From an uncultured Planctomycetaceae bacterium (lineage in GTDB: Bacteria > Planctomycetota > Planctomycetia > Planctomycetales > Planctomycetaceae), in NCBI GenBank assembly GCA_913031625.1, contig CAJWGB010000003.1, positions 1 through 64,000 on the forward strand: a stretch of 64,000 bases of DNA, in the 5' to 3' direction. Within the stretch, counting starts at the first letter, position 1. Each line of letters opens with the position of its first letter. The notes under the pieces were generated by a model, which saw nothing but the letters and a program-made list of their open reading frames with translations, did no database searches and was not told the DNA's origin. Shown piece after piece: positions 52,076-53,404 of this stretch. Made by a program: the position numbers and the translations under genes.

Positions 52076-53155
52076 CTACCGTCGTCGGCCCTCACGCGAT
52101 CGACCGGAGCCTGACCGACCTGAGCGTCCCCCTCCTGGTCCCCCACGATCAATCTCTCCGTCACCGTCGCGGTCTTCACCATAGGGAACATCGGCTTCAA
52201 AGTAGATGTTGAGATTGCGGCCTTTGGTGACGTGTTCCGAGTAGACTTTCTTTTCGGTCGTCTTTGCGAATTCTCCATTGGCCGTCAGCATCGCTGTTTT
52301 GATTGCTGCATTCTCGGCGGTCAGGGGAAGTTGAGCCATGACCTTACCTTCAAGACCAAACTCTCCGGGTCTCACAAGCACGATCGACGGTTCATCTTTC
52401 AGTCCCTCGATCTTTTTCTTCCAGTCGGCCGATGAATCGAAGTCGATATGGAACCGTCCGATGATCGTTGGATCGTTTGCGACTTCTTTGAGGCTGCTCC
52501 GCAGCGGCTGAGTCTGCTCATCGCTTCCATGCACCAGAACAAGGACGCGTTGATCAGCGGACGCAACATTCAGTGCCTGACGGACACTGTGGAAGTCCTG
52601 CACGTTTGCGCGTGTCGTTTTCTCTTTTGCCGGATAGACGGCAGCCACTCGTTCGAGCTGCGCGACACAGGCAGCCGTGCTGCGTCCCAGGACATGCTCG
52701 GGCCCACGACCTGCTCTGGAAAGCCAGTCCTGTCCGTCGGGTGACAACAGACAGAAGGCGCTGTTTTCGAAGCGACCATTCAGAAACGTACGAACATATT
52801 TCTGATGCTCAGCACTCTCGTAGGAATCGATACGAACACACACGAAGTCACGAGTGGCTTCAATGAACTCATTAGATGCGAACAGACCGTTCTGCGTAGA
52901 GGTGTAGCCTGGTCAGAAGACGCCTGAAACGCCGTGACACTGGGTTGCGGCCGCCACAAACATGATCGGGCGCCCACTTCTCTTTGCTTCTGCGAGAGCG
53001 GTTTCCCATGTGGTGTACCATGCGATGCCCGGTTCACCGATGTCCAGCTCTGATGCGCCAAGGTCAGAGGGCCGCGGGCCACCCTGAGCCCATAACGGTG
53101 GTGCCAGCGCTACAAGTGTGCACAGGACCATCGGAATCCATTGTGTCGGTTTCAT
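52076..53155 (-). CDS. Candidate selenoprotein: secreted thioredoxin-like protein interrupted by one in-frame TGA
   Basis: ORFs 53215..52913 and 52843..52076 are in the same frame; TGA at 52915..52913 and no other stop to 52076. Signal peptide MKPTQWIPMVLCTLVALAPPLWAQG; WETALAEAKRSGRPIMFVAAATQCHGVSGVF[TGA]PGYTSTQNGLFASNEFIEATRDFVCVRIDSYE. Confidence 0.6.
52878..52895 (-). promoter_or_regulatory. Candidate bacterial SECIS hairpin
   Basis: RNA GC-A-GAAC-GGUCU-GUUC-GC: 6-bp stem with a single bulged A, apical loop GGUCU; loop starts 24 nt after UGA. Confidence 0.5.
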
Positions 53156-53404
53156 TGGAGATTTCCTGAGTTTCGGGCATCGATAAAGTCTGAAACGCGG
53201 TTCCGTGCCGCTCATCGACGTGCCATTCTCCCTTCAAACCCAATTTCCCTCCAATTGGGTCGCACGTTCTGCAGAAAGCGGTCTCGAAACGGTGTGTCTG
53301 AGCAGATTCCCGCATCGGGCCAGAGTTTGGGAGCTATGTTGAAGTGTGGCGTTTTGGTAACGCCCGGCATACCCCGCATAACCGCTTCAACTTGTCACGC
53401 CATC

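Follow-up and report, generated by a model that had tools for sequence, protein, structure and literature searches.

Does the in-frame TGA in a gene of an uncultured Planctomycetaceae bacterium encode selenocysteine, or does it mark a gene that is broken? The locus lies within a 64,000-nucleotide stretch of this organism's DNA (hereafter the window), and occupies positions 52076-53155 on the minus strand. Translation gives an ATG at 53155, 79 further sense codons, the TGA, 278 sense codons and a TAG at 52078-52076, a frame of 359 codons that is interrupted solely by the TGA at codon 81 (52913-52915, minus strand). A standard ORF finder cuts the gene into two pieces, 52913-53215 (100 aa) and 52076-52843 (255 aa). 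A sequence-only reading of the locus had claimed that there is one minus-strand frame open to 52076 which the ORF finder had split, that the TGA lies 8 codons past a Cys (Cys73), and that both halves are coding and belong to one joined protein. All three claims held, the first by translation and the ORF listing and the third by homologues that are conserved on either side of the TGA. The same reading took the TGA to be selenocysteine, with a TGG(Trp)-to-TGA nonsense mutation as the alternative, and named as checks the residue at the site in homologues, in particular Trp (TGG), and the presence of selA, selB, selC and selD in the genome. As described below, the selenocysteine reading is supported by the conserved TGA, a Cys form, a hairpin and co-occurrence with selA, and the nonsense alternative failed. 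The strongest evidence, a covarying SECIS-type hairpin, was absent from the earlier reading.

We analyzed the codon aligned with codon 81 in homologues of the gene. A scan of a genome collection identified 21 homologues with 50-73% identity in MAGs labelled Planctomycetota and Verrucomicrobiales/Akkermansiaceae. In all 21 the codon aligned with codon 81 is an in-frame TGA, and protein-level similarity runs on to either side of it with no change of frame. There was no match among plasmids. Profile searches detected the family in 17 of 150 genomes from the order to which the organism belongs, 16 with the TGA form and one (G118, locus L056) with TGT and hence Cys, and in 30 of 199 genomes across the phylum, where TGA was present in all of the 29 new loci read (L089-L117). 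Counting each contig once, there are 61 further TGA loci (21 from the genome-collection scan, 11 from the order search and 29 from the phylum search), and with the window the total comes to 62 TGA loci, beside 1 Cys locus, distributed over Planctomycetota and Verrucomicrobiota. L056 is the single Cys counterpart found, and none of these 63 loci has Trp at the site. The sequences form two subfamilies, a window type with the motif C-x6-F-U-P-G-Y and a broader type with mostly APxC-x6-W-U-P-G-[KY]. Two loci, L053 (G141:C203) and L117 (G199:C33), have a second TGA or a frameshift farther on, and are either decaying genes or assembly errors.

These data bear on the possibility that the gene is broken and that its TGA arose by nonsense mutation (from TGG, for example) or by an error in sequencing. 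One genome alone could not exclude this, and L053 and L117 do look disrupted. Against it, 61 other loci, drawn from two phyla, share the TGA at this codon, the sequence evolves in a coding manner before and after it, and Trp is not seen at the site in any homologue. A TGA that is conserved together with a covarying hairpin refutes this explanation, and we consider it all but excluded.

The hairpin, CGCAGAACGGTCTGTTCGCA (52877-52896, minus strand), is of the bacterial SECIS type, is located 24 nt after the TGA and has the apical loop GGTCT (52888-52884). It is supported by covariation, frozen synonymous sites and its fit to the bSECIS model. The 5-nt loop is GGUCU in the window and NGUNN in most members, and the stem comprises 4-7 bp, whose alignment columns coincide between the two subfamilies (alignment A4, 48 sequences). 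In this alignment 96.4% of the cells of the 4-bp upper stem are paired and 65 cells have changed on both sides in a compensatory manner, whereas pairing fell to at most 51% when the 3' arm was slid 1-3 columns out of place. The covariation score of the 4-bp stem was 0.91, compared with at most 0.15 for slid and at most 0.31 for shuffled alignments; the 7-bp stem was 83.9% paired and scored 0.57, compared with at most 0.19 when slid. RNAalifold recovered the same upper stem unaided. The hairpin fits poorly in a few members (L089, L112, L114), and there is no hairpin in that register in the Cys-form locus L056.

Synonymous sites within the hairpin are constrained. Measured as codon identity between sequences that share the same residue in the window-type subfamily, identical codon choice at codons 87-92 had a mean of 0.92; the mean for 108 other codons was 0.44, and not one of them was fully frozen. 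The bSECIS model describes a loop of 3-9 nt, an upper stem of 4-16 bp, a G within the first two loop positions and a location 16-37 nt after the UGA (PMC13188914). The window hairpin meets the loop, stem, G and spacing criteria; the energy criterion was outside this comparison. By single-sequence folding the window hairpin alone is not significant by energy (-4.8 kcal/mol, z -1.3), and the evidence for it is therefore comparative. In the hairpin codons of L090-L111, a change of AGG..CCTG to CAG..CTGG alters residues from DRSFLS to DQSFWS. As compensating stem changes persist even when residues alter, the protein sequence in this region appears to be shaped by the SECIS structure.

The weak folding energy of the window hairpin would agree with a role of the UGA as a switch, in which termination predominates and releases an 80-residue peptide, and read-through with selenocysteine under selenium repletion produces the enzyme. 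It is also the case that selenocysteine insertion generally competes with termination. However, the 80-residue fragment would be without most of the thioredoxin fold, the whole protein is conserved and there is no evidence of function for the short product, making a switch very unlikely. We retain the reading in which the UGA serves to insert selenocysteine into the full-length protein.

We then considered whether the organism has the machinery to do so. The window's genome contains matches to selA (5.6e-127) and selD (1.2e-72) and an open frame of 660 aa with a selB wing domain (1.3e-12). No gene for tRNA-Sec (selC) turned up in this draft, which consists of 444 contigs and is 96% complete. 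An Rfam search of the genome for tRNA-Sec returned only tRNA-Ser(TGA) and others, all below the cut-off, and selC was detected neither in the selA, selB and selD regions (ARAGORN, Rfam) nor by a DNA search with a selC from the same genus. One relative encodes selC directly behind selD, and another gene is present at that place in the window's genome. The missing selC probably reflects a gap in the assembly. A tRNA-Sec was identified in 14 of 16 related genomes carrying the family, each with the anticodon TCA according to ARAGORN. Three further features of the selenocysteine genes in the window's genome (G000) were observed: selB does not share a contig with selA and selD; selD (G000:C6:20030-21763, L015:30-1763) belongs to a 751-aa open frame whose N-terminal portion resembles an NADH-dehydrogenase-like flavoprotein; and a second, partial SelA-like match of 56 bits over 55 positions at a contig end (G000:C56:28091-28255) is probably another PLP enzyme.

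Across genomes, the TGA form co-occurs with selA. In the order sample, selA is present in all 16 TGA-form genomes versus 62 of 150 genomes overall (p=2e-7), and in the phylum sample in 29 of 30 family genomes versus 136 of 199 overall (p=8e-5); these p-values ignore shared ancestry. It was also detected in 11 of the 12 genomes from which the Verrucomicrobia-type loci were taken. In the Cys-form genome G118, neither selA nor tRNA-Sec gave a match above the cut-off. No selA match was obtained for two genomes with the TGA form, G228 (a 92% complete draft) and G343, and they may represent draft gaps or genes whose decoding has been lost.

Alternatively, TGA could be reassigned genome-wide or be read through in another way, for example as Trp by suppression, without selenocysteine being involved. 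The failure to find selC in the window's own assembly is a point for this explanation. Yet TGA ends 9 of the 27 window ORFs of at least 300 aa and also several homologues of the same gene, and so is otherwise a normal stop here. Moreover, the one natural substitution is Cys rather than Trp and occurs in a genome without selA, and the co-occurrence with selA and the SECIS-type hairpin favour selenocysteine. Reassignment or suppression is all but excluded by these data, and we refer to residue 81 as Sec81.

What kind of protein carries Sec81? Inspection by eye suggests a signal-peptide-like stretch at the N-terminus, MKPTQWIPMVLCTLVALAPPLWAQ (residues 1-24; 53084-53155; all features of the protein are on the minus strand). 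A first thioredoxin-like domain covers approximately residues 45-173 (52637-53023) and contains Cys73, Sec81 and Cys106; it is supported by AlphaFold, Foldseek and a weak Pfam match to Thioredoxin_7 (PF13899; E=5.8e-5, 23.6 bits), which is below the gathering cut-off of 27 and indicates a distant relative at best. The second thioredoxin-like domain, approximately residues 187-300 (52256-52597), is predicted from the order of secondary structure elements in the AlphaFold model and from whole-protein Foldseek matches to the two-domain proteins PDI, QSOX1 and PDO. Sec81 and Cys106 (52838-52840) are invariant and Cys73 (52937-52939) is nearly so in a 36-row domain alignment spanning both subfamilies, L056 having Cys where the others have Sec. 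Cys73, a candidate resolving thiol in a C-x7-U arrangement, is invariant in alignments A1 and A3 and nearly invariant in A5. The window-type subfamily also has a Gly/Arg-rich tail and a largely invariant motif, DRDGDGEID (residues 328-336; 52148-52174), with an EF-hand/dockerin-like pattern; that it forms a calcium loop is possible, and is inferred from the sequence alone.

The AlphaFold model of the whole protein (pLDDT 80) has two thioredoxin-like units, and Foldseek matched it to two-domain oxidoreductases with low whole-chain TM. Modelling of domain 1 alone with 36 sequences increased the pLDDT to 90. In this model an insertion with Cys73 comes after the strand formed by residues 64-69, and the active helix begins right after Sec81. 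The model thus predicts, in the absence of a solved structure, a thioredoxin fold whose active residue caps the N-terminus of the helix, with Sec81 where WCGPC has its nucleophilic Cys. This placement was read from the secondary structure without inspection of the coordinates. A search of the PDB by sequence gave no real match. Neighbouring genes provided no substrate, as none is conserved beyond 4 of 22 loci. The most likely role is that of a periplasmic selenol oxidoreductase; its secretion and redox catalysis are inferred, and its substrate is unidentified.

Sec81 might instead be a ligand and not a redox catalyst, with the second domain and the tail mainly binding a partner or a metal. The absence of a canonical CxxC, and the DRDGDGEID motif and Gly/Arg-rich tail of the window-type subfamily, speak for such a function. 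On the other hand, Sec81 is at the position of the thioredoxin nucleophile in the AlphaFold model and most of the nearest folds are oxidoreductases. We regard a ligand role as unlikely and favour redox catalysis.

We compared the family with known selenoproteins and thioredoxin-fold proteins. The family falls short of the cut-off of every NCBIfam model. The best match is the Trx7/PDZ selenoprotein NF041199, which PMC13188914 credits to the GOS study PMC2398784 and which likewise has a domain of the Thioredoxin_7 type and a Sec close to the active site; its scores are E 0.0003-0.17 and ~11-18 bits in the members shown (15.2 in one test) against a cut-off of 300. It differs in having CxxU instead of C-x7-U and a PDZ domain instead of the second thioredoxin-like domain. 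The VPGUxxT selenoproteins NF041382 and NF041383 are likewise thioredoxin-like with Sec in the active-site region and match a few members weakly (E 0.001-0.014, below cut-off), but their motif is absent here, where it is [FW]-U-P-G-[YK]. The GOS_B and GOS_C NCBIfam models (PMC13188914) were not among the matches. The nearest solved folds of domain 1 are DsbD-gamma, DsbH, ERp19/Rp19/TXNDC12 and AGR2 (Foldseek E 1e-5 to 2e-4, TM 0.56-0.69), which have only 15-20% identity to it. These proteins use CxxC or CxxS without Sec, and to our knowledge none has an insertion of the Cys73 type before the helix. PDI, a QSOX1 fragment and archaeal PDO resemble the family in being oxidoreductases with tandem thioredoxin-like domains, but they are without Sec and have a whole-chain TM of only ~0.2-0.26 by query length. 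A 2026 review inventories 119 prokaryotic selenoprotein families and subfamilies (PMC13188914), and a CX7U or [FW]UPG[YK] family is absent from this inventory. The family is therefore probably new, with a known decoding mechanism, although GOS_A was not compared and a listing in the supplement of PMC4807772 (S9) is not excluded.

Overall, our analysis makes it very likely that the TGA at codon 81 inserts selenocysteine in a secreted, two-domain thioredoxin-fold selenol oxidoreductase; no experiment has addressed insertion or catalysis. The frame, the conservation of the TGA, the hairpin, the co-occurrence with selA and the Cys counterpart were established by computation, the fold and the position of Sec81 are predicted, and secretion, redox catalysis, the resolving Cys and the substrate are inferred. 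In the mechanism we propose, the SECIS hairpin 24 nt 3' of UGA-81 would recruit SelB and Sec-tRNA, and UGA-81 would then be decoded as selenocysteine. Sec81, which is predicted to cap the active-site helix at its N-terminal end, where W/F-U-P-G-K/Y replaces W-C-G-P-C, would be the catalytic selenol and may attack an extracytoplasmic substrate, either a disulfide or one of the peroxide type. Either Cys106 or Cys73, which precedes Sec81 by eight residues, would then resolve the mixed selenenylsulfide; the identity of the resolver is an inference.

A bolder interpretation of the 62 TGA forms to 1 Cys form is that the family is nearly Sec-obligate and performs extracytoplasmic chemistry through a C-x7-U centre in which Cys is rarely able to substitute. 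We put this forward tentatively and would not yet prefer it. The ratio fits a caveat of the deep-Sep study that its method may miss selenoproteins without Cys homologues, of which glycine reductase protein A is the only one named there (PMC12013277). G118 offers a natural experiment: it is the sole relative without selA among the carriers in the order sample, and it has Cys and lacks the hairpin. Our results add a selenoprotein family that is present in ~15% of the sampled Planctomycetota genomes and that standard gene finding would misread in all of them. Because Cys homologues are nearly absent, screens based on Cys/TGA pairs would tend to discard this family, and other Sec-only families may be hidden for the same reason.
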